Notes under the pieces: model-generated
What the model was told of the DNA's origin: nothing
Databases searched by the model: none
Seen by the model: only the letters and a program-made list of their open reading frames with translations
Source of the DNA: Methylobacter tundripaludum SV96
GTDB taxonomy: Bacteria; Pseudomonadota; Gammaproteobacteria; Methylococcales; Methylomonadaceae
Direction of reading: 5' to 3'
Length of the DNA: 64,000 nt
NCBI RefSeq assembly: GCF_000190755.2
Contig: NZ_JH109152.1
Span: 1,218,167-1,282,166, forward strand
Shown: piece by piece, positions 27,190 to 43,456 of the stretch
Numbering within the stretch: position 1 is the stretch's first letter
Layout: each line of letters starts with the position of its first letter
Position numbers and translations under genes: made by a program

Positions 27190-27264
27190 TGGGTCGTTAC
27201 GCAGTGCGTTGAAGTAGCGCTTCACAGCGAGGGAATAATCGCCAAGAAAAACCTACTAAAATTC

Positions 27265-27310
27265 TGCGACAATATGTCACATTCCATCGCCTACGTATTT
27301 TTACTAATAT
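27265..27310 (+). promoter_or_regulatory. Promoter and dyad of sRNA copy A
   Basis: TTCCAT (27282-27287), a 17-bp spacer, then TAATAT (27305-27310), with the predicted start 7 nt later at the first base of the hairpin. The same boxes and spacer length occur before copies B and C. TGCGACA-ATA-TGTCACA (27265-27281) is a dyad centred at about -44, an activator-like position; it is kept in copy C but decayed in B. Confidence 0.6.
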
Positions 27311-27316
27311 ATATAC

Positions 27317-27399
27317 AACTCTTGAGATGCAAATTTCCTCCTCGGAATTCAGAGTTTTATATCCTTCTCTAATGCGGCCCACTCGGCCGCATTTTTTTT
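27317..27399 (+). ncRNA. Candidate sRNA, copy A of a three-member family
   Basis: An 83-nt unit. A first stem AACTCT/AGAGTT encloses an inner hairpin TTCC-TCCTC-GGAA that exposes UCCUC, the complement of a Shine-Dalgarno sequence. A ~14-nt single strand and an intrinsic terminator follow (AATGCGGCC, loop, GGCCGCATT, T8). Copies B and C have exactly the same length. The terminator loop bases vary (CACTC, TAACC, TAATC) while the stem is largely kept. All three are also open in one frame (TLEMQ.SSSEFRVLYP.LMRP), so a peptide cannot be fully excluded, but no start codon or ribosome site is shared. Confidence 0.65.
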
Positions 27400-27468
27400 G
27401 CCTGTAGATAAGCGGAAGCTTTGCCTATAGGGTGGATACCAAGGTTTGCCCGTTAAGTTCCCCCTAAA

Positions 27469-27484
27469 TCAGGTTTTAACCTGA
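27469..27484. promoter_or_regulatory. TCAGGTT dyad upstream of oxidase operon
   Basis: TCAGGTTTTAACCTGA is a perfect inverted repeat with a 2-nt centre, a possible operator for the multicopper oxidase operon. No regulator can be named. Confidence 0.35.
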
Positions 27485-27689
27485 GTCCGAATCAGGGTTT
27501 CACCCGAGTTCATTTACTCTACCTTTCCGATACATTCAGTCTCAACGGAGTAAACCCTCAGACTGGCTGCCGATATAGTTCAGTTCGTTTCGTCCCACGC
27601 AAAGGGATGTCAAAGAGATGTCGAATCATAGGCATTCATGCCAAAAATCCAGATGTATTTCCAGTCGAGGAATGGATGCAAGTACTTGA

Positions 27690-27731
27690 CCGATATGTCT
27701 TGATGTTGCTGTCAACATCAAGACATATCGG
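27690..27731 (+). promoter_or_regulatory. 19-bp-arm hairpin in leader of oxidase operon
   Basis: The arms 27690-27708 (CCGATATGTCTTGATGTTG) and 27713-27731 are exact complements around the tetraloop CTGT, followed by GCTTTTGTTCTTT. It ends 38 nt before the ATG at 27770. It could be an attenuator/terminator or an mRNA-stabilising hairpin. Confidence 0.65.
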
Positions 27732-27769
27732 GCTTTTGTTCTTTGAAAAAAGAAAATGAGGTACTTCAA

Positions 27770-30049
27770 ATGAAAACCAAACATACATTAGCTGCGATAG
27801 CACTTACAGCGTTGAGTCTATCCGTACATGCCGACCTGGCACGGGTCGGACCGACTAACTTACCTTCACCGGCGGGGCACGGTTTTCCGAACTGGTATCA
27901 GGATTTGAACGGAACCGTCTTCGATTTATGCTTGCCTAATGCCAGCGATACCGGCGCCTTGCAACAGAATGCCTGTTTGCTGGTCGGGCCCGGCTTGCCC
28001 GATCCGCCTTACAGCTTCCCAACCAACTTCCCCGATGAAGCCTTTTACTTTAATGCCACGTCCGTGATGGACATGCCGGCAGGCAAGAAGGCCACGCTGG
28101 TTCTGGCGCTGGAAGCGGCCTTCTCTGTAGGGCCTGTAGTTGTGGGCGATCAAATCACATTCACGCGCATCCGCTTGTTTGCGGGCGTGCCGGAACCGGG
28201 AACTTACACCGTGACGCATCCTTACGGCGTCGAGACATTCCCGGTTGATGCGGTTTCTGCCACCGGCAACCGCGATATCGTGTTCAGCGAAGACGTCGGC
28301 GTGGCGCGCGGCGTGTTTGACGGCGCGCTTCATAGCCGTGTAGGCCCTTTCCTGCAACGTTCCGCCAGCAGCGGCGGGGTTCCACTCGCACCGGTCACCC
28401 TTAATGGCGCTCAATTCCTGTCGGACGGAGTTGCTACGGAATTCGTTACCGGCAGCCCCTTCGGCACCAACTACCTCGAGATCTGCGGTGAAACAGCCGC
28501 CGGCGCTCCCATTTTACTCGGAACCCAAGGGGCCAACGGTACCTGTATTCGCTCCGAGCAATTCAGCCTGATGGGCCGCCTGCACGATTTTGTGGCCAGC
28601 CCGATCCCCAGTCCGCTGGAGATCTACAACGGCTTCTACAAACGCGATGCTGCCGGCACGCAGGTTGATGTGTATGCCAAAGACATTAAGGTACTGGCCT
28701 CACAGCCTAATCCTTCGTTGACGGCGGCTGCAACAAACATAGCGCCTGTCAAGATGATCCCGTTCGGCCCCGCCGCGCTCGGGCAGTACTATACCCAGGG
28801 CATGGTGGATCCTCTCGGCAATTTGCCGGGCCCCATATCGGTCATCAACAGCGCCGATACTCCGCCCAGCCTATTTACGATGCATGCGGTCGATGTCGTG
28901 ACCGCGGCTTCGGCAAATTACGCTAACCAAACGCTGACCGTAGTTGCGACCAGCAGCGATAAGGGGGGCTTCGGAGTCGACCAACTACCGCCTACATTGA
29001 CGCTGGAGGGCTACGGCGACACAGCCGTGTCAACCAATAACGCCAACGATCCGGCTGAAGTGACCCTAAAGGTGGCCGGTGTCGTCACGCCGCCGGATAC
29101 CGTTACCGTGAAATCGACTGCCGGCGGCAGCGGGACATTCCCCGTGGCGCGCAATCAGGTAACAGGGGCCGGTGCGCCCGGAGCTGGCGTACCGCTTGCC
29201 CTGGATGATAGCGCAGTCGCAGAAGCGGGAGGTTTGGCCGTCGATATTCCGGTTACCGCTAACGATGTCGCTAACCCGGCGGCTCTGATCACCTCTGTGC
29301 AATTGGTCGGACAGGCGATTCCGGCGGGTTCCGGCTCGGCATCCGTTAATGGCGTTGCCATCACGTACACGCCGGGTTCCGTAAACGGCGATGTGACTTT
29401 CCAATATACGGCATCCAACAGCATCGGTCAGTCCAATGTGGCGACAGTGATCGTCACGGTCGCGCCGTCCGCAGCAGGGCCTGCACCGATTGTTAACCCC
29501 GATGGGCCGGTCAATGTGGCCGTCAGCCAGTCGGTAGTGATTGATGTGCTGGCCAACGACTCTGGCAATGGCGCTGCGCTGAATCCGGCGTCGGTATTGG
29601 TATCCAACGTCACCGGCGGCACGGCAACGCCTGATGCGACCGGCAAGGTGACTTTCGCGGCTGGCGCCACGGCAGGCACTTTCGGCTTCGATTACACCGT
29701 AACCAATGACAATGGTCAGGTTTCACCGCTTGCGCATGTCACGGTAACGGTCGTTAATGCTGAAGTTATCCAGATAACCAGTACGCAGTGTAAACCCATC
29801 AATGCCACTTCGGGCGAATGGCGGGTCGCTGGAACCAGTACAGTGCAAACCAACAACAATATCCAGTTGTACCTGACAGCCTCTGTGCCGACCGACCTGA
29901 ATACCAATAAACTGGGCGCGGCAACTCCAGTCGTCGCCGGTGCGTGGGACTTCAGGGCAAAACCAGGACCTGCCTGCAAGACGCCGATCAGCTTGCGGTC
30001 ATCAGCGACGGGCGCAACGAGGGCAAATATCGCCATTACCATCAGGTAA
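27770..30049 (+). CDS. Secreted cadherin/Ig-like repeat protein next to multicopper oxidase
   Basis: A 759-residue exported protein with signal peptide MKTKHTLAAIALTALSLSVHA. The first ~440 residues form a beta-rich domain I cannot name. Then come two bacterial cadherin/VCBS-like repeats (~480-570 'DDSAVAEAGGLAVDIPVTANDV..' and ~575-665 'VNPDGPVNVAVSQSVVIDVLANDSG..') and a C-terminal domain with a Cys pair (ITSTQCKP, GPACKTP). The ATG at 27770 has TGAGG upstream; the frame's TTG at 27743 is rejected. It is the first gene before a copper oxidase and a SCO chaperone. A role as surface scaffold or partner of the oxidase is inference. Confidence 0.75.
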   Translation: MKTKHTLAAIALTALSLSVHADLARVGPTNLPSPAGHGFPNWYQDLNGTVFDLCLPNASDTGALQQNACLLVGPGLPDPPYSFPTNFPDEAFYFNATSVMDMPAGKKATLVLALEAAFSVGPVVVGDQITFTRIRLFAGVPEPGTYTVTHPYGVETFPVDAVSATGNRDIVFSEDVGVARGVFDGALHSRVGPFLQRSASSGGVPLAPVTLNGAQFLSDGVATEFVTGSPFGTNYLEICGETAAGAPILLGTQGANGTCIRSEQFSLMGRLHDFVASPIPSPLEIYNGFYKRDAAGTQVDVYAKDIKVLASQPNPSLTAAATNIAPVKMIPFGPAALGQYYTQGMVDPLGNLPGPISVINSADTPPSLFTMHAVDVVTAASANYANQTLTVVATSSDKGGFGVDQLPPTLTLEGYGDTAVSTNNANDPAEVTLKVAGVVTPPDTVTVKSTAGGSGTFPVARNQVTGAGAPGAGVPLALDDSAVAEAGGLAVDIPVTANDVANPAALITSVQLVGQAIPAGSGSASVNGVAITYTPGSVNGDVTFQYTASNSIGQSNVATVIVTVAPSAAGPAPIVNPDGPVNVAVSQSVVIDVLANDSGNGAALNPASVLVSNVTGGTATPDATGKVTFAAGATAGTFGFDYTVTNDNGQVSPLAHVTVTVVNAEVIQITSTQCKPINATSGEWRVAGTSTVQTNNNIQLYLTASVPTDLNTNKLGAATPVVAGAWDFRAKPGPACKTPISLRSSATGATRANIAITIR

Positions 30050-30080
30050 GTAAACGCAGAGAAAGCGTTGGAAAACAACA

Positions 30081-30104
30081 CACCGGTTCCGCAAGGGACC
30101 GGTG
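30081..30104 (+). promoter_or_regulatory. GCAA-tetraloop hairpin between secreted protein and oxidase genes
   Basis: CACCGGTTCC-GCAA-GGGACCGGTG forms a 10-bp stem with one G:U pair, followed by 'cttctct' without a clear T-run. It may be an RNA-processing or stability element inside the operon. Confidence 0.5.
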
Positions 30105-30137
30105 CTTCTCTAAATCCTCTAAAAACAGAGGTGTGCC

Positions 30138-32066
30138 ATGTTTAAGAAAATAATCAAGGTAACGAACTTCAGCCAACGCGAGAAAACCATAGCTCGCTAT
30201 ATGCAGGAAGTTAACGACATTCAAAAGGCCGGCATCACCCGGCGCGAATTATTCAAAATGGGTTTGACAGCCGGTGTTGGCGGCCTGACCGCGATTGGCG
30301 GTCGTAACTTTCTGCCCAATCTGGCTGAAGCGGCGGATACTGGTTTGATCAGTCCGCCCTGCAACAAGCCCTGGACGGAGCCGCTGCCGATTCCCAAATC
30401 CTGCCAATCGGTCGGATTTTACACCGGCCCTACGCCGGAAGAAGGCCAATGCGGCGAAAAGCAGACGCTTTGGAATCCGGGCGCAAATGCTTTTGACGAC
30501 TTCGAGGAAGCGCGCGACGAGAATCATCAGCGCTGGACCGAACTGGGCGGCCTGGATGCCTGCACGAAATATGAGCTGATGGCCAGGGAAATTGACTGGA
30601 ATTTTTACTCGACGGAAGAATATCCGTCCTTCAACTCCAAGGTCTGGACCTATGTCGATATGAACTCGGATGCCGTCGGCGTACTGCGTATCAATGCCCA
30701 TTACGGTGCGCCGGTCCTCATGCGCATGTATAACGGCTTGCCCAAGGATAGTAAGGACAACCAAGGGTTTGGCATCAACCAGTGCACGCCGCACCTGCAT
30801 AATGCCCATAACCCCCCGGAATCCGATGGCGGACCGACCCGGTTCTACGACTCCGGCAAGTGGTGGGACTACTGGTATCCCAATGTTCGGGCAGGCTTTG
30901 CCAGCACGCACAAGAACGGAACTTGGTACAACGGATCATGGTGTCCGGGCGACTGGCAGGAAACCCAAAGCACGCTGTGGTTTCACGACCATCGGTTCGA
31001 CTTCACCGCCGCCAATGTCTACAAAGGCATGGCCTCGTTCTATACGTTGTTCAGCAACGATATTAACCTCGATACCGGTGATGAAGCGACCGGCCTCAGG
31101 TTGCCCAGCGGTGAATACGATGTCCCGCTGCTATTCACCGACAAGGTGTTCGACCAAAGCGGACAGATGTTCTTCGACACCTTCAACCTGGAAGGCATCG
31201 TCGGCGACCAGCAAACGGTCAACTTCAAGATCAAGCCCGTTATGGATGTCAAGCGGCGTAAATACCGTTTCCGCTTCCTGGATGGCGGACCCTCGCGGTT
31301 TATCGAATTATTTATGAGTAACGGCGCCAAGTTCACGCGCATCGCCAATTGCGGTAATCTGTTGCCTAGGGCGCAAGTTGTCTCCAGTGTACGGCTGGGC
31401 GTGGCCGAAAGAGCGGATGTGATCATCGATTTCAGCCAATACGCGCCAGGCACTGTGATTTACCTGGAAAACCGGCTGGAGCAGCTCACCGGCAAGGGCA
31501 CCACGGGCAAGATTCTTCCTTCCAGCAGCAAGACCCAATTGCTCAAATTCGTCGTATCCGGCGATCCGGTTGCAGATGACAGTGCATCGTTGAGCACGCT
31601 CCAGTCCCAGGTCATGGTGCCGATGCCTGCTCGGACCAATCCGATCAAGGTCCAGCGCCGGTTCAAGTTCGATACCAGCAATGGGGCCTGGACGGTCAAT
31701 GGCCAGTTATTCGATCCCTCCAAAATCAGCGCTTATCCGGCAGAGGGGTCGGCGGAACAATGGACGCTGGAGTCGGGCGGCGGCTGGTCGCATCCGGTGC
31801 ATTCGCATCACGAGGAATTCCAACTGCTCACCCGCAACGGCAAAGCCGAGAATCTGGCGATCGATGACAAATCGCGCAAGGACGTGGTCCGGATCGGCGA
31901 TGGGGCCGTTGGCACGTCGGGAACGGGGTCGGTCAGCTACTACATGCAATACCGCGACTGGTATGGGGACTATCCATTGCACTGCCACAATGTCGTGCAT
32001 GAAGACCACGCCATGATGATCCGCTTCCGCATCGTGCCGCCCGATGACTCGAAAGCCGGCAAGTAA
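30138..32066 (+). CDS. Tat-exported multicopper oxidase
   Basis: A 642-residue laccase/CotA-like multicopper oxidase. The Tat signal 'TRRELFKMGLTAGVGG' lies ~37-52, preceded by a long n-region. Four copper motifs are complete: HLHNAH (~217), HDHRFD (~282), HPVHSHHEEF (~551, T1/T2/T3 ligands) and HCHNVVHEDHAMM (~614) with Met as likely axial ligand. The enzyme would oxidise an organic substrate or Mn(II)/Cu(I) and reduce oxygen to water in the periplasm or outside the cell. GAGGTG precedes the ATG. It is followed 22 bp later by a SCO-family chaperone, suggesting assisted copper loading. The substrate is unknown. Confidence 0.9.
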   Translation: MFKKIIKVTNFSQREKTIARYMQEVNDIQKAGITRRELFKMGLTAGVGGLTAIGGRNFLPNLAEAADTGLISPPCNKPWTEPLPIPKSCQSVGFYTGPTPEEGQCGEKQTLWNPGANAFDDFEEARDENHQRWTELGGLDACTKYELMAREIDWNFYSTEEYPSFNSKVWTYVDMNSDAVGVLRINAHYGAPVLMRMYNGLPKDSKDNQGFGINQCTPHLHNAHNPPESDGGPTRFYDSGKWWDYWYPNVRAGFASTHKNGTWYNGSWCPGDWQETQSTLWFHDHRFDFTAANVYKGMASFYTLFSNDINLDTGDEATGLRLPSGEYDVPLLFTDKVFDQSGQMFFDTFNLEGIVGDQQTVNFKIKPVMDVKRRKYRFRFLDGGPSRFIELFMSNGAKFTRIANCGNLLPRAQVVSSVRLGVAERADVIIDFSQYAPGTVIYLENRLEQLTGKGTTGKILPSSSKTQLLKFVVSGDPVADDSASLSTLQSQVMVPMPARTNPIKVQRRFKFDTSNGAWTVNGQLFDPSKISAYPAEGSAEQWTLESGGGWSHPVHSHHEEFQLLTRNGKAENLAIDDKSRKDVVRIGDGAVGTSGTGSVSYYMQYRDWYGDYPLHCHNVVHEDHAMMIRFRIVPPDDSKAGK

Positions 32067-32088
32067 TCAATCGAACGAGGATACAGCC

Positions 32089-32748
32089 ATGAACAAAAGA
32101 GAGTTTATCAAAAGCGCAACCGCTGCTTCTCTTGGCGCAGTGGTATTGGGTGCAATGCCCTCCATATCAACTGCAGGGGAGCGTTCCCTTTTAATCAAGC
32201 CGAGCAATCGGGACGAGCGCCGCAAAAAATCCTTCCCGAATGTCCCGCTGGTAACGCATGAGGGCGAGACCGTGCGGTTCTATGATGACCTGATCAAAGA
32301 CAAGACCGTGCTCATCAATTTTATGTATGCGCGTTGCGCCGATATTTGCCCTGGCATGACGGCGAATCTGAAGCGGGTGCAAAAAGAGCTGGGTGAGCGA
32401 ATGGGGCGCGACATATTTATGTATTCGATCACGCTTGAGCCGGAATACGACACGCCGGCGGCGCTGAAAGCTTATGCCGATCTCTTTAGAGTCAGGACGG
32501 GCTGGAAGTTTCTGACAGGCAAAAAAAGTGACATCGAGCTGCTGCGCAGGCAACTGGGTTTTACTTTCTCGGATCCGGTGCTGGATCAGGACAAGACCCA
32601 GCACATCGGCGTCGTCAAATACGGCATCGAGCCGTTGGAGCGATGGGGAACGTGTCCCGCCTTGGGTAACCCCAAATACATCGCCGAATATGTTTACTGG
32701 ATGGAACCTAGTGGGCAGAGACCGAAGTTGTCAGAAATGATGGGCTGA
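32089..32748 (+). CDS. SCO1/SenC-family copper chaperone
   Basis: A 219-residue exported thioredoxin-fold protein. Copper ligands are CADIC (~83-87) and His in 'TQHIGVVKYG' (~171). The N-terminus 'MNKREFIKSATAASLGAVVLGAMPSISTAG' is a signal sequence with a weak Tat-like KREFIK. GAGGA lies before the ATG at 32089; the frame's opening at 32044 overlaps the oxidase and is rejected. Usually SCO proteins metallate cytochrome oxidase CuA; here position suggests service to the multicopper oxidase. Confidence 0.9.
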   Translation: MNKREFIKSATAASLGAVVLGAMPSISTAGERSLLIKPSNRDERRKKSFPNVPLVTHEGETVRFYDDLIKDKTVLINFMYARCADICPGMTANLKRVQKELGERMGRDIFMYSITLEPEYDTPAALKAYADLFRVRTGWKFLTGKKSDIELLRRQLGFTFSDPVLDQDKTQHIGVVKYGIEPLERWGTCPALGNPKYIAEYVYWMEPSGQRPKLSEMMG

Positions 32749-32784
32749 AATCCGCAATAACAGAGAAGACGTCGGTTTAGCGCC

Positions 32785-32964
32785 ATGGATAAAGCGCCGG
32801 ATCAAATGCCGGCGGAAAAAGACCCCGTCGCTACCGGGCTTTTTAACCGATACAGGAAACTGTCGATGCCGAACCTCAGGCTAACCGACGTTGATGTAGA
32901 GGCCCTGGTTAACTATATGGAAACCGGTGCCATACCCTCCGCGATGGTTAAACTAAACGGTTGA
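32785..32964 (+). CDS. Short ORF resembling C-terminal tail of SCO/cytochrome c-like proteins
   Basis: A 59-residue frame, MDKAPDQMPA... ending MVKLNG. The segment 'LFNRYRKLSMPNLRLTDVDVEALVNYME' resembles the heme-Met region (MPN) of small cytochrome c domains and the tails of some SCO proteins, but no CxxCH heme site is present. It lies 36 bp after the SCO stop and before the operon terminator. It is either a remnant of a longer fusion or a small independent gene. The ribosome site is poor. Confidence 0.4.
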   Translation: MDKAPDQMPAEKDPVATGLFNRYRKLSMPNLRLTDVDVEALVNYMETGAIPSAMVKLNG

Positions 32965-33018
32965 TGCCGGTATATCGGCAGCTGTAAGTGCAATATCTGA
33001 TGGGTAGGACGCTATTTG

Positions 33019-33057
33019 GACTGGCCCGGAAACACCTTCCGGGCCAGTCTTTTTTTT
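33019..33057 (+). terminator. Strong intrinsic terminator of oxidase operon
   Basis: GACTGGCCCGGAA (33019-33031), loop ACACC, TTCCGGGCCAGTC (33037-33049), then eight T. The stem is a perfect 13 bp. Confidence 0.95.
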
Positions 33058-33378
33058 GTCTGAACAAAGTAGGCAAATAGTCCAGTTATCGTCCCCTCAT
33101 TTTTGCGAGAACTAGTACTGATACTTATATATTTATCAATCTATTGAAGCTACCATCAGGCACGAAAGGCAAGTGTAGTCATGGGTTGCGCAGCCGGAAC
33201 CCGATTATATTTTAATGCAAACATATTATAGTGTGCATGCCTTAAATAACCCTTAATTATGAAAACGGGTCATCTGCCTGAGGTGGTTTTGATCGACCAG
33301 AATTTGCGTCGAAAAAAGCGTGAAGAGCTCTCAGGCTGTTTAAGAAAACATTCAGCGAGGCTATGTGGGGGATTAATT
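33058..33378 (+). other. Upstream region of narL-type regulator
   Basis: About 320 bases with no gene. The open frame from 33259 runs into the regulator, but its first 40 residues are not receiver-like. I see no certain promoter; a GGGGG ribosome site is at ~33367-33371. Confidence 0.4.
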
Positions 33379-34272
33379 ATGTACAAAATTGCAATAATTG
33401 AGAGTGAATCGATTATCAGGGAAGGGCTGAGTGTTCTTATATCCAAGGAATCCGGTTTTACTGTCGATTTCCAGTCTTCCGCCCCAGCGGCGCTTTTTCG
33501 GCAGGCTTGGATTACCCCTCCTAACCTGATTTTATTGGACATGATGATGCCGAAAAACTACGGCATCGAAGTTATAAAAGAAATAAAAAAACGCTGGCTA
33601 CCGACCAAGATTCTGATTTTTACTCTGAAGGATACCGAAGAGAATATCTGCGCTGCATTTCGTGCCGGTGCCGATGGTTATATACTCAAAGGCACGACGC
33701 TTTCTGAATTGATTGTGGCTATAAAAAGCATTTTGGCAGGCCAGTATTATGTTTGTCCCGAGATCTTGCCGCAGATTATCAATGGCTATCTTAAGGTAGA
33801 AAAATCATGCCTCGATAATAACTTAAACTGGAATCTGACCAGCAGGGAGGCGCAGCTGTTGAAACTGATTGCCGCAGGCTACAAGAATAAAGAAATCGCC
33901 GACAGCCTTTGCATCAGTTTAAAAACTGTAGAGACGCATCGTGCCACGTTAATGAGGAAATTTAATGCACATAATGTGGCCACATTATTATCGGTTGCGA
34001 ATCAGGCAGGTGTACCTCCCTGTCGTCTTTGCAAGAACCTTGTTGTTAGTCAATCCATCGAAAGGAGTGCGGGAAGCGTAACGCCAGTGGAGCTGTGTAC
34101 GATGCCCCCCCGCGTAGCCGTAGCGGCCGGGCGTTTTGACGAAATTGTGCGTCGTGGACTGGCGGAGGACGAATGCACGGTGCGGAAGGCATGTGTGCTA
34201 GGATTTATCGCTGCTAAAATCGGATGGATCTATTTTAGCTTTCGCGAAAACCTTGGCGCGCTGATCTGTTAA
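33379..34272 (+). CDS. NarL/FixJ-type response regulator with extended C-terminus
   Basis: A 297-residue two-component regulator. The receiver (~1-120) has phospho-acceptor Asp in LILLDMMMP and the switch Lys in YILKG. The LuxR-type helix-turn-helix (~150-212) reads 'LTSREAQLLKLIAAGYKNKEIADSLCISLKTVETHRATLMRKF'. Family members normally end soon after 'LLSVANQAGV' (~215); here ~80 extra residues follow, with a seven-C run in the DNA at 34107-34113. The tail may be read-through after a frameshift. No partner kinase is adjacent. The ATG at 33379 has GGGGG upstream. Confidence 0.82.
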   Translation: MYKIAIIESESIIREGLSVLISKESGFTVDFQSSAPAALFRQAWITPPNLILLDMMMPKNYGIEVIKEIKKRWLPTKILIFTLKDTEENICAAFRAGADGYILKGTTLSELIVAIKSILAGQYYVCPEILPQIINGYLKVEKSCLDNNLNWNLTSREAQLLKLIAAGYKNKEIADSLCISLKTVETHRATLMRKFNAHNVATLLSVANQAGVPPCRLCKNLVVSQSIERSAGSVTPVELCTMPPRVAVAAGRFDEIVRRGLAEDECTVRKACVLGFIAAKIGWIYFSFRENLGALIC

Positions 34273-34435: not shown

Positions 34436-34595
34436 CTCTGCGACATTCTGACACGCGTCAATTTGCCACATTCCATCGTCTAGGTATTTTTACTAAGATA
34501 TATGCAACTCTTGAGATGCAAACTTCCTCCTCGGAATTCAGAGTTTTATATCCTTCTCTAATGCGGCCTAACCGGCCGCATTTTTTTTGCCTGCA
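34436..34595 (+). repeat. 160-bp direct repeat, left of Wadjet-like operon
   Basis: From CTCTGCGACATTCTGACACG to GCCTGCA. It is collinear and of equal length with 41338-41497 on the other side of the SMC operon, differing at scattered bases mainly in the promoter part. A third, shorter copy is at 27263-27407. It contains sRNA copy B. Confidence 0.9.
34506..34588 (+). ncRNA. Candidate sRNA, copy B
   Basis: The same 83-nt unit as copy A: stem AACTCT/AGAGTT, inner hairpin exposing TCCTC, terminator with loop TAACC and eight T. The promoter is TTCCAT-17-TAAGAT. The upstream dyad is degraded (CGCGTCAATTTGCCACA), so its control may differ from the other copies. Confidence 0.65.
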
Positions 34596-34707
34596 GGATT
34601 CTGCATGGACAGATATTTGAGTGTCGTTTTGACAAACCAGCCTTTAAACCGGCACCCGGTTAAATCCGGTATTCCGTCGATGCAGTTCGTTTCTCCCCCG
34701 GCAAGGA

Positions 34708-35589
34708 TTACCGATGCTCTGCTGAATCCAAACCATGCACGACCAGCGCACAGCCCGCCTGTAACCAATATTCCTGCACTATGCCCGCCTGATGTTTTTT
34801 CATCATTCCCCAAAGCTGTCTAATCAAGCTATGGGGGCTGGTTGATAAGTTTTGGCAACCCGCCAGCTGCTTGTCATATAGCTTGGAATTGGCTTTTTGC
34901 TTATCTTCAAGCAAAGCCTCCAAATCGGCCAAACAAGGCGCTATTAAACCGACAATGTGAGGAAAGGATTGGGCAATTCTCAAGCCTTGGGGGTCAAGAT
35001 CAGCCATAGCCAGTACCGGTAAGTTGAGCTGCGCTAACAGTTGCCGTACCGTCTTTTCACTGTAGTCGTTATCGCCTCGATATAACACCAATGGATCGAC
35101 ATATTGAGCCGGTAAATTTAGCTGCATGTTTTCCAGACGATCAAAACAGCGATAGTTTTCAATCAGCAGGATGCAGTTATGCGCGGTGCCGGTTATATCC
35201 GCCAACGCCATATCCAGATAACCGCTGCCCGGTAATGAATACGATAGTCCGTTGATTTTCAACGCCCTGCCGGTTAACGCTTTAATCGCTAACCGGTCTT
35301 TTTTAACGGACTGCCCGGCTATTTTCTCATCCAACGCAAAAGCTAAAGCCGCTTCGCGATTCATTGCCGCAAAATCAGCAACCGAGATTTGCTCAAGATC
35401 GATGCCGTCTTCATGTCTAACCACCGCAATCAAGTCATCCTTATCCTGCTGCGTGACTTTCAGCTTATTGCCTTGTGTTTGACCGATATTGTATTGCCGA
35501 TGCAGATATTCCCAGCTCTGATTAAGCGGAAAAAGCTGGTTGTCAGACCGGATCGCCCGCTCTATAACGCTTAACAATTGCTTGTTCAA
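34708..35589 (-). CDS. Toprim-domain protein, JetD/MksG-like nuclease subunit
   Basis: A 293-residue protein with a C-terminal Toprim fold like topoisomerase VI-A and JetD. The metal ligands are Glu144 (LLIENY) and Asp197/Asp199 (MADLDPQG), with 'LVLYRGDNDYSEKTVRQLL' between. It is shorter than usual JetD (~390), mainly in the N-terminal arm. In Wadjet systems JetD cuts circular plasmid DNA after the SMC motor has extruded it. It is the last gene of the operon and overlaps the kleisin-like gene by 4 bp. Confidence 0.78.
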   Translation of the reverse strand: MNKQLLSVIERAIRSDNQLFPLNQSWEYLHRQYNIGQTQGNKLKVTQQDKDDLIAVVRHEDGIDLEQISVADFAAMNREAALAFALDEKIAGQSVKKDRLAIKALTGRALKINGLSYSLPGSGYLDMALADITGTAHNCILLIENYRCFDRLENMQLNLPAQYVDPLVLYRGDNDYSEKTVRQLLAQLNLPVLAMADLDPQGLRIAQSFPHIVGLIAPCLADLEALLEDKQKANSKLYDKQLAGCQNLSTSPHSLIRQLWGMMKKHQAGIVQEYWLQAGCALVVHGLDSAEHR

Positions 35590-36815
35590 TTGTCAGCGCT
35601 CCGAAACTGAAGAACAATATCCCTCACCTTTTTGTTACCGGAAAAATGCCGACCGACATCGGCCTGAATCAATTCCATCTGCAAGCGTTTATTGCGTTGC
35701 TGCCGCCTTAACCATTCATTCAGCACGCAACTCAACCAGATTGAAGGTTCGATGTCATCCACGAAAGCCTGTTGAAAAGCTACGGCTGAAATGGACTGCC
35801 CCTCATTTTTCAGCACCCTGTCGAAATACACTCTTAACTGTTTTCGATACAGCGGCAAATCCAAGGTTGTTTTGTTTTGCGGACTTAAAGACACCGCGCT
35901 TAACGAGCGCTGTTTTTGTTTTGCCAACATGACTTCCGTATCGATACGGATTTTTTGCGCAATCTCGATTAAGTCTTCTTCCAACGCATGATCCAGCGGA
36001 TCGGCATAGGCAAACAATGCCAAAGGCTTGATCTGGTTCCAGTGCTCGGGAATGCTGTCGCGCTCGCTCCAGTCCTGCGGTTGATAATTCTGGTTTTGCT
36101 GTAGAAAAAAGGCAAAGCCTTGCACTAATTGCGCTCTAGCCTCTATTTGCCTGAGCTCAAATAAAAAGACTTTTAACTTGTCGAGAATATCCTGCAAACG
36201 CTGCTGGTAGATAGGCAGCTTACGAATCAGCTGATGATCCAGTAAGTCGTAAATAAGCGGCTGATCTTCAACCATTTCCAATAAAGATTCAGGTTGCAGC
36301 GCGGTGATGGCATTCACCAGTTTTTCCAGCCTGGAAATGTAAAAGGTATTCTGTTTTTGTTTTTCCGCCAGGGTGCGCACATTGGCGAAGCGGCTGTTAA
36401 CCAGCATCGATAAATAGCGGGTGTTTTCTTCCAGGGTATCGGACAAATCGAAAACCAGACGTTCGATTTCGGCAAAATAATTGTCGCAATCGCCCAGCCG
36501 GTTTTCAACTTCGGCATCCTGATACAGGCTGATTTGCAGCTTCAACGTATCAATCCAGTCGGCTAGATCGGTATCCAGTCGCCGAACCCGGTCGCTGCTC
36601 AAGGCGCTGTCTAAAAACTGAGTCAAACGCCCGGCGATACGGTAGCCCTCCGCGTCATGATTAACCAGCACCTTCAATTGTTTGAGCTGGTTTAGCGCGC
36701 GCTGGTTTTGATTGTCCTTGTAGACCACGCCGGTAAAATAAGCCTCCGCAATCAACTCGCTATGGCCGGCTAATGTTCTCAGTAAGCGCTCCAAGCCTTG
36801 TTGCGACTGGCTCAA
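35586..36815 (-). CDS. Kleisin-like subunit (JetA/MksF-like)
   Basis: A 409-residue, almost wholly helical protein without catalytic motifs. Length, helical content and position match the MukF/MksF/JetA kleisin that bridges SMC heads. The C-terminal ~80 residues ('FQQAFVDDIEPSIWLSCVLNEWLRRQQRN') look like a winged-helix-type end. It shares ATGA overlaps with both neighbours. The assignment rests on operon context and architecture rather than strong motifs. Confidence 0.7.
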   Translation of the reverse strand: MSQSQQGLERLLRTLAGHSELIAEAYFTGVVYKDNQNQRALNQLKQLKVLVNHDAEGYRIAGRLTQFLDSALSSDRVRRLDTDLADWIDTLKLQISLYQDAEVENRLGDCDNYFAEIERLVFDLSDTLEENTRYLSMLVNSRFANVRTLAEKQKQNTFYISRLEKLVNAITALQPESLLEMVEDQPLIYDLLDHQLIRKLPIYQQRLQDILDKLKVFLFELRQIEARAQLVQGFAFFLQQNQNYQPQDWSERDSIPEHWNQIKPLALFAYADPLDHALEEDLIEIAQKIRIDTEVMLAKQKQRSLSAVSLSPQNKTTLDLPLYRKQLRVYFDRVLKNEGQSISAVAFQQAFVDDIEPSIWLSCVLNEWLRRQQRNKRLQMELIQADVGRHFSGNKKVRDIVLQFRSADN

Positions 36816-37441
36816 AACAGACTCCCCTGAATCGTATCGGTTTCGCCCTGCTCGACCGGGATTTGTTCGTGCTCCTGAATAAACTGCAAGGCCTGATAAA
36901 AATAATCCAGCTTGCCGTTCACCTGATAAATAAGCGTATCTTTATTGGCTAAAGTCAAATATCCCCATTTGCACAGTGTAAGCAACAGCTTCTCCAGCCG
37001 CCCTTTTACCGAATCATCGCCGCTGGTAAAGTCCTTGAATTTTGCAAAGGTCTGCAAACGATCAGCCAGGGCCTGATTGTGTTCGATGACTTGCAACAAA
37101 CCGGAAAAACTCAGCGTGTCGCCGGGCGATAAGGCGGTATCCTGGTTTAAGCAGGACATCATCATATCCAGCCACTCAACCACCGGCTGCAACTCGATGC
37201 GAAATTGATAAAAAACTTTACGGATGTCGCTACGTGCGCTGCTGTCTATCGTCCGGTAAGCCGCAAAAAAGGCCAGCCGGTTCTGAGTACTGGACAAGCG
37301 ATAATCAAGGCGGGTTAAAAACTCATCCACCTGCGCCGCATTTTCAGGGTCTTGCAAATAACGAAAACCGGCTTCATCACTGACTTCGCAAATAAATTCA
37401 CCTTGCAGCAAACGTTTTAATAATTGATCAAACATGTTCAT
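36812..37441 (-). CDS. MukE/MksE-like subunit (JetB-like)
   Basis: A 209-residue acidic protein that fits MksE/JetB, the kleisin-binding winged-helix subunit of bacterial condensins ('LLQGEFICEVSDEAGFRYLQDPENAAQVDEFLTRLDYRL', 'LEKLLLTLCKWGYLTLANKDTLIYQVNGKLDYFYQALQFI'). It overlaps the SMC gene by 14 bp and the kleisin gene by 4 bp, so the subunits are translationally coupled. It has no enzymatic motif. Confidence 0.75.
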   Translation of the reverse strand: MNMFDQLLKRLLQGEFICEVSDEAGFRYLQDPENAAQVDEFLTRLDYRLSSTQNRLAFFAAYRTIDSSARSDIRKVFYQFRIELQPVVEWLDMMMSCLNQDTALSPGDTLSFSGLLQVIEHNQALADRLQTFAKFKDFTSGDDSVKGRLEKLLLTLCKWGYLTLANKDTLIYQVNGKLDYFYQALQFIQEHEQIPVEQGETDTIQGSLF

Positions 37442-40400
37442 CCGCCGTTATCAGAGGTTCAAGTGCTGATAAATAATCCTCGTCCACGTCCATTTCGATC
37501 AGCTCCCGATAGCCGAATACCTGATAACGGTTTTTAAACAGCCTTAAAACTTCGGGATCAGGATCGGGAAAAGCCGAGAATAAAGTAATCCGGTTTTTAG
37601 TCAGCATTTCCACCAACACTTCAATATTCATCTGATGCAATTCCTTGAGCTCATCCATCGGCCAGATGATATTCAAGGGCTGATCTTTACGAATCATATT
37701 CACCAGCGCAATAAAAAATACGCATAAAATCAGGTACGATAAGCCATGGCTGGAAATCTGCCGCAATTCCTCGGCATGGGTCGCCCGTTTGCTGCGACCA
37801 TTTTCGGTCACAATGATTTCCAGCTCCAGCAAATTAACCAGCTTCATTTCTACCCGGCCTTTACCTTTCAATTGTTCAGACACCAGTCTGACGATGTCGG
37901 CAAATTCCGGGGACGGCAACTGTTCGTCATTAGTTCGACTCCAGTCATCATAATTTTTGGTGAAGCGGACTATTTGCTCCCAGTAACCCAGTGTCGTAAC
38001 CTTGGACGTTAACCGCCCTTCGATGCGCTCGATTTTTTCAAAACGGATATTGCCGTCGATATGCGCCGCCAAGCGACGCGACAAGGAATCAATGCCGCGG
38101 TCAAAACACTCCAATGCCTGCTGATAATTTTTGATCGCGTAGCCAAAAAGTTTTGCCTGACTCATTAACCAACTTCTGGCAGAACCGGATTCTGTCGCAT
38201 ACCAAGCCTGAATTCGACTCAGCCAAGCCATTTCATCGCTATCAAAGCCTAATTCATCTTCGACACGCGCATAATAGCGGCCCGGATGTGTGCCTGGAAA
38301 ACGCGCCAACACCTGTTTCAAATGACGGATCAGACCGGCTAAATCCTTGCGTAGCGTCTTGTGTTGCTCGGTTAACTTGCGGCAATCGGTCTGCAGTAAC
38401 GATAAGGTATGGGCATTATCAAAACCGACGGGTTCCGGGATGCGCTTAACATAACCCGCTAATTCAGCCAGCAGGTTATTAATCGCTTTGATTTCCTTGT
38501 CAAGCCTTTGCAGCTTGGCGGCTATTTGCTCCAGTTCCTTTTTTAAGGCAGCGCGCCTTTGCTGCATGTCTGCTGTTTCCGTCTCGTATCGCGCTTGTTG
38601 CTGCTTGAGTTCCGCCTCCGTTTCCCTGGCTTTAACCACCTGGCTATCATATAAAGACCAGTCTTTATCCAGCCAGCGTTGATATTCCTTAACCAGTTGT
38701 TCCGCCTGTTCTGCGGCTTTTAGTTCATCTGCCAATTGGCCGATTTTGGTTTCAAGATCCTTTAAGGTGGCGGTATCGACTTTTCTGTCCTGCAAGCTCT
38801 GAATCCGTTGCCGCTCCAATTGCGCCAACTCGCTGTCTTTTTGTTGATTGACGTTATTAATAAGCTGTTGCATTTGCTCGACTTGTAACAACGCATCCTC
38901 GGTAATCTGCCGGATTTTGGCAGCCAGTTCCTGGTTTAATCGCTGTATTTCGGTTTCCAGCTGTTGTTTGAACGCTTGCAGGCGACTATTGCTTAACTTG
39001 ATTTGCTCGTCCAGATTGGTTTTTTCCTGCTCCAGTTTGGCCTTGCGCTCTTTCTTGCTGCGTTCAATTTGCTGTTTTAACGAGTTTAATTCTTCATTGA
39101 GCCCATTTAACTGCGTTTGCAATTGCCCGGCGCTAAAAGCAGCGTCTTTGCCTTGTTTTTCCAGGCCGGATGCGACCTTTTTTAACGCCTGCAACTGTTC
39201 ATCGCTGTTGGCCTCGGCGGCTTTCAGTTGACTTAATTGACTCCGGGCATCGCTCAGCAGTGCGCGGATTTGTTCTTCATCGGCGGTATAGTCGGCCTGC
39301 AAATTATCCAGATTCAAGCTCAGGCCATAAAAGCTCTGTTCCAATGCTTGCGATGCCGGCTCCAAATCGTCTCTTAATAACAGATCCGGGTTAATCACTT
39401 TGGCTATGTTGCTTATCCAATCCGGCTGATGTTCGCGCAAAAAGCCCAGCAAGGTGTCCGGGTTGGCATCCAGTTGTTTTTGCAGTTGTTCGCTCGCATG
39501 CTGTATGCGCTGTTTATCTTCATCCTGTTTACGCTTTTCGCTAACAACCGTATCGATCTGCGCCTGATTTTTCTTGGATTCCGCTTCAATTGCTTTAACC
39601 GTCTTTCCCGCCTCCTCCTTTTGCTGCTGAATGGCATGAAGCAGTTCCAACTTAGCTTCCCTGTTTTCAATCAAGGCGGGATCCGGTTGAATTTGGGCAA
39701 TCTGACTGTTCAACGCGCCCAACTCGCCCTGCAATTTTAATTGCTCAACATGCAGGTTATCTTGTTGCTTTTGATTTTCCAGCCTAAGCGATTCTTTTTG
39801 CTGCTCAACATCTTTATTAGCAACGGACTTACTTTCAGCCGCTTTATTTTGTATGTCTTTTATGCCGATTTCATAGCCATGCTGTTGCTCGGCAAAATAC
39901 CGTTCTTTTTCCGCCTTCAAGCGTTTAAACTCGGCTTCGATGTCCTGCACATCTGACATCAACTGCTTATGATTATCCCGCTCTCTATCCAGGCTATTCT
40001 TTATTTGCGTAAGGCGGACAACCAACTGTTTTTTACCCTGTACGTCCTGTTTTTCCCAGTCGGCTTTTTCATCCTCCAACGATTTTTGTTGTCGCTGCGT
40101 CTGCGCCAAATCGGCCCTGATCGCCGCTAACTCGGTTGCAAGCGTCTGCTCCCGAGCTTCCCAGTCTTTTTTGAGCTGCTCCAATTGCTTATTGCACGCG
40201 TTCCCGGCATCCTGCTCTTGTTGCAGGTTTTGTTCGTTTTGATTGCGTAAACGCTGCAAGCGATATTGAAGTTCGCCCAAGCTTTGCTCAATGTGAAGTA
40301 ACTCATTCTCCAACCGGTTGAGCCGCTCTATTTTATCCCGCTCCAATTCGGTTTCCTGATAAGCGCGGTATTCCTTATACCAATCATCCAGCGTTTCCAT

Positions 40401-41078
40401 TTTCAATTCCAAAGCCAGGGAATCGCGGTTTTCATCAATACAGTTCACCAGCATTTCGCGCAAGTCGGCAAAATCGGTGGAACGCATAAACATTCCGGTA
40501 ACGATTTTTTCTATATCTTTCAGCCTATGCCCGGCACTGCCGTTACAGAAACTGTAGCGCGCGACCAATTGGCGTAATTCCTGGCCTTTCTTGTGCGGCA
40601 AATTCTGGATCACCGTGCGGTAATCGCTGCAGGCGGTAATCTGGTCGCTACAATTGATATGCCGCTTAAGGAAATGCGTACGCAGACCCCGGCAAGAAAC
40701 CGGATAATGCGATCCATCCCGGTGGGTTTCAATAAAGTCGTCCTTATCGAATCCCTTATCGACAAAGCGATAACACAGCCCTTCTTCATTGGGGGAGGCA
40801 TACATCAGCGCCATACAGGTTTGCTCATGTCGCTGATATTCAAAAATAATATAAGAAGACTCGTTAGGCAGGTAATGCTTGGCGAAACTGTCGGTAACCC
40901 GGCTTTTCGGAACTAACCGCCCTGGCCGTTCGCCGAAAAACAGCGGCACTAAGCGCAATAATGTGGTTTTACCGGCGCCATTAACACCATTAAGATTGGT
41001 ATGTCCATCCAGGCGAACTTCCACCAATTCACCGGGTTTGTATGAATCAATGAGGATCAAGCGGTTTAATGAGTACAT
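37428..41078 (-). CDS. SMC/MukB-like ATPase (JetC/MksB-like)
   Basis: A 1216-residue SMC-type ATPase. The N-terminal head has Walker A GVNGAGKTT (~31-39). Two long coiled coils (~225-520 and ~650-900, rich in E/K/Q/L) flank a hinge-like globular part (~540-620). The C-terminal head has a signature-like 'SSHGLSYLILCVFFIALVNMI' and Walker B 'LNIIWPMDELKEL'. It would extrude DNA loops. It is the first gene of a C-B-A-D ordered operon, whereas described Wadjet operons run jetA-B-C-D and MksFEBG runs F-E-B-G. There is no clear ribosome site before the ATG. Confidence 0.85.
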   Translation of the reverse strand: MYSLNRLILIDSYKPGELVEVRLDGHTNLNGVNGAGKTTLLRLVPLFFGERPGRLVPKSRVTDSFAKHYLPNESSYIIFEYQRHEQTCMALMYASPNEEGLCYRFVDKGFDKDDFIETHRDGSHYPVSCRGLRTHFLKRHINCSDQITACSDYRTVIQNLPHKKGQELRQLVARYSFCNGSAGHRLKDIEKIVTGMFMRSTDFADLREMLVNCIDENRDSLALELKMETLDDWYKEYRAYQETELERDKIERLNRLENELLHIEQSLGELQYRLQRLRNQNEQNLQQEQDAGNACNKQLEQLKKDWEAREQTLATELAAIRADLAQTQRQQKSLEDEKADWEKQDVQGKKQLVVRLTQIKNSLDRERDNHKQLMSDVQDIEAEFKRLKAEKERYFAEQQHGYEIGIKDIQNKAAESKSVANKDVEQQKESLRLENQKQQDNLHVEQLKLQGELGALNSQIAQIQPDPALIENREAKLELLHAIQQQKEEAGKTVKAIEAESKKNQAQIDTVVSEKRKQDEDKQRIQHASEQLQKQLDANPDTLLGFLREHQPDWISNIAKVINPDLLLRDDLEPASQALEQSFYGLSLNLDNLQADYTADEEQIRALLSDARSQLSQLKAAEANSDEQLQALKKVASGLEKQGKDAAFSAGQLQTQLNGLNEELNSLKQQIERSKKERKAKLEQEKTNLDEQIKLSNSRLQAFKQQLETEIQRLNQELAAKIRQITEDALLQVEQMQQLINNVNQQKDSELAQLERQRIQSLQDRKVDTATLKDLETKIGQLADELKAAEQAEQLVKEYQRWLDKDWSLYDSQVVKARETEAELKQQQARYETETADMQQRRAALKKELEQIAAKLQRLDKEIKAINNLLAELAGYVKRIPEPVGFDNAHTLSLLQTDCRKLTEQHKTLRKDLAGLIRHLKQVLARFPGTHPGRYYARVEDELGFDSDEMAWLSRIQAWYATESGSARSWLMSQAKLFGYAIKNYQQALECFDRGIDSLSRRLAAHIDGNIRFEKIERIEGRLTSKVTTLGYWEQIVRFTKNYDDWSRTNDEQLPSPEFADIVRLVSEQLKGKGRVEMKLVNLLELEIIVTENGRSKRATHAEELRQISSHGLSYLILCVFFIALVNMIRKDQPLNIIWPMDELKELHQMNIEVLVEMLTKNRITLFSAFPDPDPEVLRLFKNRYQVFGYRELIEMDVDEDYLSALEPLITADEHV

Positions 41079-41337
41079 TTTATTTTCTATCGATTGATTA
41101 CAGACTGTATTCAGTTGCAGGGAAATAAGGCAAATAATCTCCGTCGACTGAGTACAGGTTGGTATTGTTATTTTGTTGGCTTGGGGCGAGTCGCCAAATC
41201 GGTCATATTATCATTCCCGCGCTCCGTCGTGGGAATGATGACAATTGGCACGGTCTTGGGGAGTATAAAAGCAGTTTTCCAGGACTTGACTGCTTCTGAG
41301 TACATCGAAAAGCATGGATGGTTTGTTCCGCCCAAAC

Positions 41338-41497
41338 CTCTGCGACATTCCGACACGCGACAATATGTCACATTCCATTATCTATCATTTATCGCTAATA
41401 TAGCTGCAACTCTTGAGATGCAAACTTCCTCCTCGGAATTCAGAGTTTTATATCCTTATCTAATGCGGCCTAATCAGCCGCATTTTTTTTGCCTGCA
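41338..41497 (+). repeat. 160-bp direct repeat, right of Wadjet-like operon
   Basis: Same orientation and length as 34436-34595. The 83-nt transcribed part is nearly identical and the promoter part is diverged. The two copies bracket 6.7 kb that contains only the four SMC-system genes. Confidence 0.9.
41408..41490 (+). ncRNA. Candidate sRNA, copy C
   Basis: An 83-nt unit with promoter TTCCAT-17-TAATAT and the intact dyad GCGACA-ATA-TGTCAC upstream. In the terminator one stem pair is lost (C/A), giving a 7-nt loop CTAATCA, but the eight-T tract remains. Confidence 0.65.
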
Positions 41498-41675: not shown

Positions 41676-42764
41676 CTACTCCGGAATTTCGCCACTAATC
41701 GCCTCCGAAGGCGAAAAGAATTTTTGCCTGAAGTAAAGCGCCACCTTGACCAACCCGATCAGCACCGGAACTTCGACTAACGGCCCGATGACTGCTGCAA
41801 AAGCTTGCCCGGATTGCAGCCCGAAAACCGCTACGGCGACCGCGATGGCCAATTCGAAATTATTGCCGGCGGCGGTAAACGACAGCGTGGCGCTGATGCG
41901 ATAGCCTGCCCCCGCCTTGGCCGACATATAAAACGTGACCAGAAACATGATCAGGAAGTAAATGATCAACGGTACGGCGATGCGCGCCACATCCATCGGC
42001 AGTTGCACGATATATTCGCCCTTGAGGGAGAACATGACCAGAATCGTGAACAGCAGCGCAATCAGGGTAATAGGGCTGATTTTGGGCATGAACGTTTCCT
42101 CATACCACTGCAAACCCTTGCGTCGCACCAGGAAAAAACGCGTGAACATGCCGCCGAAAAAGGGGATACCCAGATAAATCAGCACGCTTTTGGCGACCTG
42201 GATCATGGTCACCTGAACTTCAAGGCCGGAAGCGATGCCCAGCCAGTCCGGCAGGACGGTGACGAAAACGTAGGCATACACGGAAAAGAACAGCATCTGG
42301 AAGATGGAGTTGAACGCTACCAAGCCTGCGCAGTATTCGCTATCGCCCTCGCCTAACTCGTTCCAGACCAGCACCATGGCGATGCAGCGAGCCAGTCCGA
42401 TGATGATCAGGCCGACCATATACTCCGGGTAGTCCCGAAGAAAGATGATGGCCAGCGTAAACATCAGCACCGGGCCGATAATCCAGTTCTGGACCAGCGA
42501 CAGCAACAAAACCTTGGTATTTTTGAAAACCTGGGGTAATTCCTCGTAGCGCACCTTGGCCAACGGCGGGTACATCATCAGGATCAGGCCGATAGCGATG
42601 GGCATGGAAGTAGTCCCCACCTGGAAGCGGGTCAGCCATTGGGTGAAACTGGGAATGAAATAGCCCAGCGCGATCCCGCCCGCCATAGCCGTAAATATCC
42701 ATAGCGTCAGAAACCGCTCTACGAAGCCCAAACGCTTTGGAGCGTGGTCGAATTGTGTATTCAT
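41676..42764 (-). CDS. acr3: ACR3-family arsenite efflux permease
   Basis: A 362-residue, ten-helix inner-membrane exporter of arsenite (also known as arsB of the ACR3 type). The family Cys region '[19 protein letters not shown]' holds the conserved Cys; '[19 protein letters not shown]' and '[17 protein letters not shown]' are the second-half signatures. It is the last gene of arsR-arsC-acr3, separated from arsC by a CACGAAG hairpin. No arsH or ArsB partner ATPase is present. Confidence 0.95.
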
Positions 42765-42833
42765 AGTTGTCTCTTCCCAATAGTTGGGGGGAATGTCAGT
42801 AAAAAATAGACCCTGTATATCCGATTCTTTTAT

Positions 42834-42893
42834 TCACCACGAAGGCACGAAGAGCACGAAGTCTATATTTTTTCTTCGTGTTCTTCGTGGTGA
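42834..42893. repeat. CACGAAG-family hairpin between arsC and acr3
   Basis: The arms caccacgaaggcacgaagag and cttcgtgttcttcgtggtg face each other around a ~12-nt AT-rich loop. It could modulate read-through into acr3. Confidence 0.8.
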
Positions 42894-42936
42894 GAAACAA
42901 TGCGTAACAGTAGGATGATCTTGGATGGAAGCAGCC

Positions 42937-43416: not shown

Positions 43417-43436
43417 GGCTTTCCCCTGATATTTAT

Positions 43437-43456
43437 ATATTCGAATAAACGAATAT
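43437..43456. promoter_or_regulatory. ATATTCG dyad between arsR and arsC
   Basis: ATATTCG-AATAAA-CGAATAT is a 7-bp-arm dyad resembling ArsR/SmtB-family operators. Its position after arsR and 20 bp before arsC suggests a second, internal ArsR-controlled promoter. Confidence 0.45.

Follow-up and report, generated by a model that had tools for sequence, protein, structure and literature searches.

A 64-kb stretch of DNA from a Methylobacter-type genome (G000), referred to here as the window, carries three near-identical units of 83 nt. The question raised by this locus is what these units encode, which regulator would control them and on what their products would act. The family that they form is designated sRNA1.

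Three units with a common layout

The initial annotation had described the units as small RNA genes that share a promoter layout and end in a single-stranded tail and a strong terminator, and this description was confirmed. Each unit is exactly 83 nt long and lies on the + strand (Table 1), and each starts 7 nt after a TAATAT (copies 1 and 3) or TAAGAT (copy 2) hexamer, which is separated by 17 nt from TTCCAT. All three units begin AACUCUUGAGAUGCAA, and the predicted transcript of ~83 nt would begin AACUCUUG. An AACUCU/AGAGUU stem closes a smaller hairpin, and UCCUC occupies its 5-nt loop in every unit. The 3' part comprises unpaired UUAUAUCCUU(C/A)UCU, within a tail of 14 nt, and then a AAUGCGGC stem-loop with a T run; the terminator stem is kept among the three units and its loop varies. 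For all three copies, the fold was better than that of 200 dinucleotide shuffles, none of which was as good.

Table 1. Features of the sRNA1 units, their promoters and sRNA2. Matrix, score matrix of the promoter box; R2, covariance model built from relatives.
Feature	Position	Strand	Remarks
sRNA1 copy 1	27317..27399	+	83 nt; fold z -3.49; R2 98.7 bits
Copy 1 hairpin	27317-27356	+	
Copy 1 UCCUC loop	27339-27343	+	
Copy 1 CU-rich single-stranded tail UUAUAUCCUUCUCU, proposed seed	27357..27370	+	unpaired in predicted fold; conserved UCCUU columns; sRNA3 tail similar
Copy 1 terminator	27371-27399	+	
Copy 1 box TGCGACAATATGTCACA, RegA/PrrA-like	27265..27281	+	centred at -44; matrix score 25.7; 1 mismatch to PrrA and to RegR consensus
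Copy 1 -35 position TTCCAT	27282-27287	+	weak
Copy 1 -10 TAATAT	27305..27310	+	TAnnnT at same place in 57/58 family copies
sRNA1 copy 2	34506..34588	+	83 nt; fold z -4.10; R2 102.6 bits
Copy 2 tandem boxes	34439..34470	+	distal 34439-34455 TGCGACATTCTGACACG, score 10.3; proximal 34454-34470 CGCGTCAATTTGCCACA, score 27.6
Copy 2 -10 TAAGAT	34494..34499	+	place conserved
sRNA1 copy 3	41408..41490	+	83 nt; fold z -2.95; R2 96.3 bits
Copy 3 tandem boxes	41341..41372	+	distal 41341-41357 TGCGACATTCCGACACG, score <8; proximal 41356-41372 CGCGACAATATGTCACA, score 28.8
Copy 3 -10 TAATAT	41396..41401	+	place conserved
sRNA2	L058:3090-3210 (G000:C2:1301089 on)		same box as sRNA1

Distribution among methanotrophs

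A Blast search of the window's own genome (4.85 Mb, 100% complete) returned 13 matches, of which three are long; the other ten span 14-20 nt, and two of these are boxes of the sRNA promoter type. With copy 1 and its promoter as query, 21 of the 23 genus genomes gave a match, among them all 14 good ones; in G018 the match covers only 42 nt. When named genomes were scanned for the exact pattern, 23 stretches matched; 18 of these are titled Methylobacter and one Crenothrix, the rest being Methylococcaceae or Methylococcales MAGs.

The search with a covariance model that the initial annotation had called for was carried out with R1, built from an alignment (A1) of 36 genus copies that omits a degenerate partial copy (L033, genome G018) and includes three further copies. 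R1 matched 182 of 237 genomes of the window's bacterial family, which we take to be Methylomonadaceae in GTDB usage, in 28 of 29 genera (E<=0.01). The model was then rebuilt on 63 family-wide matches as R2. Of the order's 311 genomes, 201 gave an R2 match at E<=0.001; every one of them belongs to the window's family, and the 74 genomes from elsewhere in the order gave none. Family-level matches near E 1e-3 (genera g13, g26, g28 and g29) are weak and were inspected in part.

The units are non-coding and structured

In the three window copies, a shared frame that would encode a small peptide, MQISSSEF..., is open to the unit end. Two of the 36 genus copies have no ATG and 17 carry an in-frame stop, which in two cases falls at the second codon; indel lengths are not multiples of three, and single-base indels shift the frame of other copies. 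The earlier view of the units as non-coding therefore held, and peptide coding was rejected on the in-frame stops and the lost ATG. The compensatory base-pair changes described below also argue against a peptide, which is left with practically no chance.

Covariation was assessed in a MAFFT alignment (A5) of 38 diverse copies, namely window copy 1 and 37 of the 63 family-wide matches. When no structure was given, RNAalifold chose the outer stem and the terminator, with a double change in 8 of 12 pairs. For the named structure, both-side changes were found in 9 of 15 pairs, amounting to 27 cells as against 4.9 +/- 1.8 in shuffles, none of 500 reaching as high (the shuffles ignore relatedness). 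Sliding the pair partners lowered the paired cells from 93% to 27-48%. Within the genus alone covariation is smaller, with 4 of 22 pairs and 6 cells, and pair types are no more than in 66 of 500 shuffles.

Conservation across the 63 matches falls chiefly on the tail. The tail UAUCCUUC is kept family-wide, with the UCCUU columns 90-98% conserved and the preceding A, U and A columns 79-87%. The five loop columns are conserved at 71, 49, 51, 54 and 38%, with gaps in 12-14 rows, and CCUCC is absent from the loop in several genera. Hence, the exposed UCCUC loop, which had been put forward as a mark of the family, is present in all three window units but does not define the family; as the loop varies while the tail is constant, UCCUC is one CU-rich option.

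Tandem variants were observed in genome G025 (L177 and L189), in which the sRNA1 tail and terminator are kept and the 5' half is another one with ACCUCCU; L177 alone holds five matches. Variants of this kind from G025 are among the rows with gaps in the loop.

At the level of sequence, the units thus have their own promoter and an intrinsic terminator and are non-coding, as is expected of a trans-acting sRNA; covariation is present for sRNA1 and weak for sRNA3, a relative described below. Each unit is almost certainly a real sRNA gene.

The promoter box

A dyad centred at -44 had been noted in two copies. It is exact in copy 1 and has C for T at the first base in copy 3, but the count left out copy 2, which carries a degenerate form (34454-34470). 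Copies 2 and 3 have an additional box 15 bp upstream of the proximal one, and their tandem boxes differ at 1-2 positions from the consensuses for PrrA and RegR discussed below.

A matrix was derived from 58 promoters, consisting of those of 55 of the 63 family-wide matches and the three window copies. Eight matches were left out: L171 as a near-duplicate, L189, L194, and five from L177, with a differing 5' half. The box is a nearly invariant unit GCGRCAATNTGYCAC inside a 17-mer whose end lies 34-36 nt upstream of the start (35 nt in 43 of the 58), and 50 of 58 copies have another such unit upstream of it, at a distance of exactly 15 bp. TAnnnT occupies the -10 position in 57 of 58, and the commonest -35 sequences have nothing like TTGACA. 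A tandem box combined with a -10 and lacking a TTGACA-like -35 would be the layout of an activator-dependent promoter. When the 64 kb were scanned with the matrix, only the three sRNA boxes, which are themselves among the 58, scored at least 19, and the next best site scored 10.7.

Proximity to ntrC offered another reading of copy 1, as an ntrC 3' UTR, an attenuator or an appendage controlled by NtrC and sigma-54. An sRNA copy does lie <=1.5 kb from ntrC in 15 of 21 sRNA-bearing genomes of the genus. However, copy 1 has a box and a -10 of its own, ntrC is not a neighbour of copies 2 and 3, and 49 of the 50 loci L148-L197 (which, except for L184, come from other genera) gave no ntrC match, the remaining one giving a 28% match. 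Sigma-54 promoters carry a -24/-12 motif, and none was seen by eye. Both the appendage and sigma-54 control were rejected on these grounds, and this reading is hardly credible.

Further sRNA-like genes with the same box

The exact genus consensus of the box, TGYGACANNNTGTCRCA, occurs at three sites in the 4.85-Mb genome, all of them at sRNA-like promoters: those of sRNA1 copy 1 and of two further genes, designated sRNA2 and sRNA3. The exact box is present in 18 of 23 genus genomes, and a reversed control in none. Allowing one mismatch in the window's own genome adds copy 3 and one site (C2:927148) without a visible sRNA, whereas two mismatches give 27 sites, no excess over the reversed control (37). 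The family had been introduced as one of three copies, which falls short: the same box also serves two further sRNA-like genes, one of them beside regBA.

The site at C2:927148 (L046, L062) is the only near-exact one in the genome away from an sRNA-like gene, and an SbcC-like open frame follows its box at ~100 bp.

The second exact box, at C2:1301089, precedes sRNA2, a short unit with a terminator and a fold z of -4.29, for which 15 of the 23 genus genomes gave a match (in one over 44 nt only). The R2 search does not detect sRNA2, which is therefore linked to sRNA1 by its promoter and not by its sequence; the -10 alone serves to place its start. The 5' end UGCGCUC..ACUUAC of sRNA2 is strongly kept, whereas the loop of its hairpin varies.

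The third exact box, at C1:2580679, lies between a gene that by eye resembles those for methionine sulfoxide reductase and a regB/regA-like pair. The best NCBIfam families for the pair are ActS/PrrB/RegB (211 bits, cut-off 350) and ActR/PrrA/RegA (187 bits, cut-off 250), both scores being below the cut-off. After the box, on the strand leading away from regB, follows sRNA3, a unit of ~97 nt with the order AACUUUUAAGG...UUAUAUUCUUCCUAA...terminator. R2 recognises it weakly (28 bits, E 0.002), and its tail, UUAUAU(U/C)CUUCCUAA, is close to that of sRNA1. The distance from the end of the box to the -10 hexamer is 23 nt alike in sRNA1 copy 1, sRNA2 and sRNA3. The fold z of sRNA3 is -3.16 in G000 and -1.78 in G157, where 8 of 200 shuffles were as good. 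In an alignment (A4) of 20 of 24 sRNA3 references, two ends of which were moved by hand to the full terminator, RNAalifold found a double change in 1 of 11 pairs and did not recover the outer stem.

A gene for sRNA3 diverges from regB at 12 of 12 genus regB loci carrying the box, loci that were chosen for it. Outside the genus, it was found in 11 of 17 regB-upstream regions from nine genera, making ten genera with the window's own; the regB-upstream stretches of the other six (G061, G164, G102, G122, G145 and G222) have no box. Autoregulation of regB through this box was considered and dropped, since the box points to the divergent sRNA3 and is spaced for it. The box may serve both regB and sRNA3.

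Two further observations concern this type of site. In L302 (G100, genus g15), four sites scoring 17-27 lie upstream of regB, which suggests an array of sRNAs at regBA. In L091 and L092 (G017, G018), the symmetric box TGCGACAATTTGTCGCA or its complement occurs elsewhere, away from any R2-recognised sRNA, and these may be further regulon members.

RegA as the candidate regulator

Consensus sequences for PrrA (Rhodobacter) and RegR (Bradyrhizobium), both of the RegA family, were taken from PMC5506826. Against the consensuses compared, GNGRCRTTNNGNCGC and YSCGGC-N5-GWCRMA, all seven boxes examined showed 1-2 mismatches. Positions with at most one mismatch to these two consensuses are rare, 15 and 10 among ~128,000 in the window, some of them the boxes themselves, and none was exact. 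The R. capsulatus consensus, with 682, is too loose to discriminate. Given the near-match to the PrrA and RegR consensuses and the place of one box beside regBA, RegA is the best candidate and is probably the regulator that binds the box.

The case for RegA is lowered by the feo promoters. In Methylomonas DH-1, the feo promoter was found by ChIP to be bound by RegA (PMC13274454). No box was found within 350 bp upstream of FeoA at 19 loci in 17 genomes, the best score there being 10.7 as against 19.4-29.9 for the sRNA boxes. The feo promoters of genus g16 (presumed Methylomonas, and so congeneric with DH-1) have no box in 7 of 7 genomes, with a best score of 4.4. RegA sites can be degenerate, and no motif was deducible in Acidithiobacillus (PMC5506826), so that the feo result makes RegA less likely without excluding it.

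Co-occurrence does not point to RegA, because RegA is nearly universal in the order, being encoded in 288 of 311 genomes and also in families that have no sRNA. Of the sRNA-positive genomes, 190 of 201 have RegA; among the 11 that do not, eight are <90% complete and the others are G037 (98%), G071 (100%) and G196 (91%).

In an alternative reading the sRNA family is the same, but some other regulator than RegA recognises its box, and the position next to regB would reflect regulation of regBA by sRNA3, or chance. The feo promoters without a box, the occurrence of RegA in families without the sRNA and the six of 17 regB regions outside the genus that lack a box are all consistent with this. Against it stand the distance of only 1-2 mismatches from two published RegA-family consensuses and the presence of the box at the regBA locus in ten genera including the window's own. 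Control by another regulator is accordingly regarded as possible but rather doubtful.

Proposed mode of action and targets

As the best explanation, held tentatively and with less than even confidence, the sRNA1 units and their siblings are RegA-controlled sRNAs that pair with ribosome-binding regions through CU-rich tails. The three units would be copies of one trans-acting small RNA. RegB would sense redox imbalance, and RegA would occupy both boxes of the tandem (about -59 and -44) and activate (less likely repress) a sigma-70 promoter without a good -35. The RNA, probably together with Hfq, would use the unpaired CU-rich tail UUAUAUCCUUCUCU to pair with mRNAs at their ribosome-binding regions, so that translation would be lowered. 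In many species the CU-rich loop would help the tail to pair, and the sRNA1 copies and sibling RNAs would act together, as dosage. RegA binding, transcription and targets are points that we infer from the DNA itself.

The genome contains an hfq gene, and by analogy a CU-rich unpaired RNA beside a T-run terminator in such a genome looks like a base-pairing repressor of translation starts. A synthetic pairing sRNA represses a gene in Methylomonas DH-1 (PMC7720504), which indicates that a pairing mechanism works in that methanotroph. Pairing energies were computed against 42 translation starts of the window, which were chosen partly by an anti-SD score that itself favours pairing. On this set, the sRNA1 tail gave -5.1 kcal/mol at starts and -3.7 kcal/mol in coding sequence, and the loop -7.8 and -5.9 kcal/mol, whereas the 5' end preferred coding sequence over starts. 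For neither tail nor loop was pairing with the 42 starts better than that of shuffled probes. The sRNA3 tail gave a mean of -5.45 kcal/mol against the same starts, better than 10 of 10 shuffled probes (-4.73 to -2.87). Used as a target bait in the genus, the exact tail complement GAGAAGGATATA returned 30 sites, 29 of them in sRNA genes and one in an apparent open frame. Pairing of the CU-rich tail or loop at translation starts is slightly more likely than not to be the mode of action.

The failure to see specific pairing by the tail or loop of sRNA1 at the 42 window starts, together with the multiple near-identical copies, would also suit RNAs that sequester a protein by repeated CU-rich stretches rather than pair with mRNAs. 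The binding motif of CsrA/RsmA consists of GGA repeats, and the units have no repeat of that type; the only GGA is part of the stem, and 7 of 36 copies have GAA in its place. Hfq and the U8 terminator suit a pairing RNA, and protein sequestration is considered improbable.

If the pairing sRNAs are indeed under RegA, a further step can be put forward only as a doubtful one: RegA would act largely via a private set of sibling sRNAs, whose shared CU-rich tail would turn redox imbalance into translational reprogramming. In that case, as the sRNA gene at the regBA locus and the multi-copy sRNA genes all carry the RegA box, the exact-box regulon of the genome would consist of sRNAs only. Gammaproteobacterial methanotrophs are a main biological methane sink and are used in industry, and a redox-linked sRNA family, if true, would be a concrete way to retune their metabolism between methane, methanol and low oxygen.

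Relation to known systems

The earlier remark that no described family with this sequence was known was supported. Rfam 15 gave no match in the window at the gathering score and three at E<=1, far below the gathering score, and no description of the sRNA1 family was found among the papers listed for methanotroph sRNAs and RegA-linked sRNAs in the open-access PMC library. Hence, sRNA1 is apparently an undescribed family of a known kind of regulator.

The closest working model is RoxS/RsaE of Bacillus and Staphylococcus, in which C-rich stretches can pair with the Shine-Dalgarno sequence and which is controlled by ResD/SrrA through a conserved upstream site (PMC4409812). The likeness lies in a small RNA with CU- or C-rich pairing stretches under a redox two-component regulator, which here would be RegA. 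Unlike RoxS/RsaE, which belongs to another phylum, the sRNA1 family is multi-copy, has a box of the RegA type and is accompanied by a sibling gene beside regBA. RsaE is included in Rfam, and the sRNA1 units match neither its model nor any other Rfam family.

In Alphaproteobacteria, Cuckoo/alpha-r14 RNAs use anti-SD motifs as seeds, and one of them, NfeR1, silences ntrB at its translation start (PMC10746234); the CcsR1-4 RNAs likewise have CU-rich anti-SD elements in unpaired regions (PMC10253847). Such unpaired CU-rich anti-SD elements are shared with sRNA1. However, the alpha-r14 motif CCUCCUCCC is ultraconserved in unpaired regions, whereas in sRNA1 it is the tail UAUCCUUC that is conserved and the loop that varies, its columns reaching 38-71%; the genus has UUCCUCCUC at most, and the promoter is different.

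The Qrr sRNAs of Vibrio are multi-copy siblings under a response regulator and depend on sigma-54 and LuxO. The sRNA1 family resembles them in its multi-copy siblings and in its putative control by a response regulator, but differs in the sigma-70-type -10 (TAnnnT in 57/58), in the box and in having no Rfam match.

The RegB/RegA regulon of Methylomonas sp. DH-1 concerns the same two-component system in a gammaproteobacterial methanotroph. There, tonB and tbdr are RegA-dependent and not bound by RegA, effects that the authors call possibly indirect, and the words sRNA, small RNA, non-coding and motif are absent from the main text (PMC13274454). If the proposed explanation is true, the sRNA family might link RegA to such genes controlled without RegA binding (PMC13274454). 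The native sRNAs named for DH-1 in the available text of PMC6373157 are housekeeping RNAs, and those named for the type II methanotroph Methylosinus sporium in that of PMC12403871 are EcpR1 and alpha-r45.

Genes between and beside the copies

The interval between copies 1 and 2 (27411-34047) encodes a multicopper oxidase and SCO1 proteins, and that between copies 2 and 3 (34588-41356) holds a cluster encoding MksE, a DUF3584 SMC protein and a DUF7281 toprim protein. These two cassettes, bordered by sRNA copies, are present or absent independently of each other in related genomes. In G010 the first interval is missing and a single sRNA joins ntrC to the second; G013 has the first cassette without the second; and G022 and G003 have neither cassette, their sRNAs being arranged in tandem. 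Recombination between the sRNA repeats would yield this pattern.

Copies that border exchangeable cassettes, and that are multiple and either tandem or dispersed, could also be expected of a mobile or selfish repeat conserved by copying and not by function. Covariation and the constant promoter geometry argue against such a repeat, and the unit had no match in 72,556 plasmid records nor its core pattern any in viral contigs, on which basis plasmid or viral spread was rejected. A mobile repeat is considered very unlikely.

The second cassette includes a four-gene MksE-like condensin cluster with a toprim protein (34708-41078, - strand), for which PADLOC gave weak matches to the SMC protein alone (LmuB, mad8, JetC); it may be a distant Wadjet/MksBEF-type system. 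Beside copy 3 (41676-43877, - strand) lie genes for an SBF-family transporter, an LMWPc phosphatase and an ArsR-type regulator, which together resemble an arsenic-resistance set.
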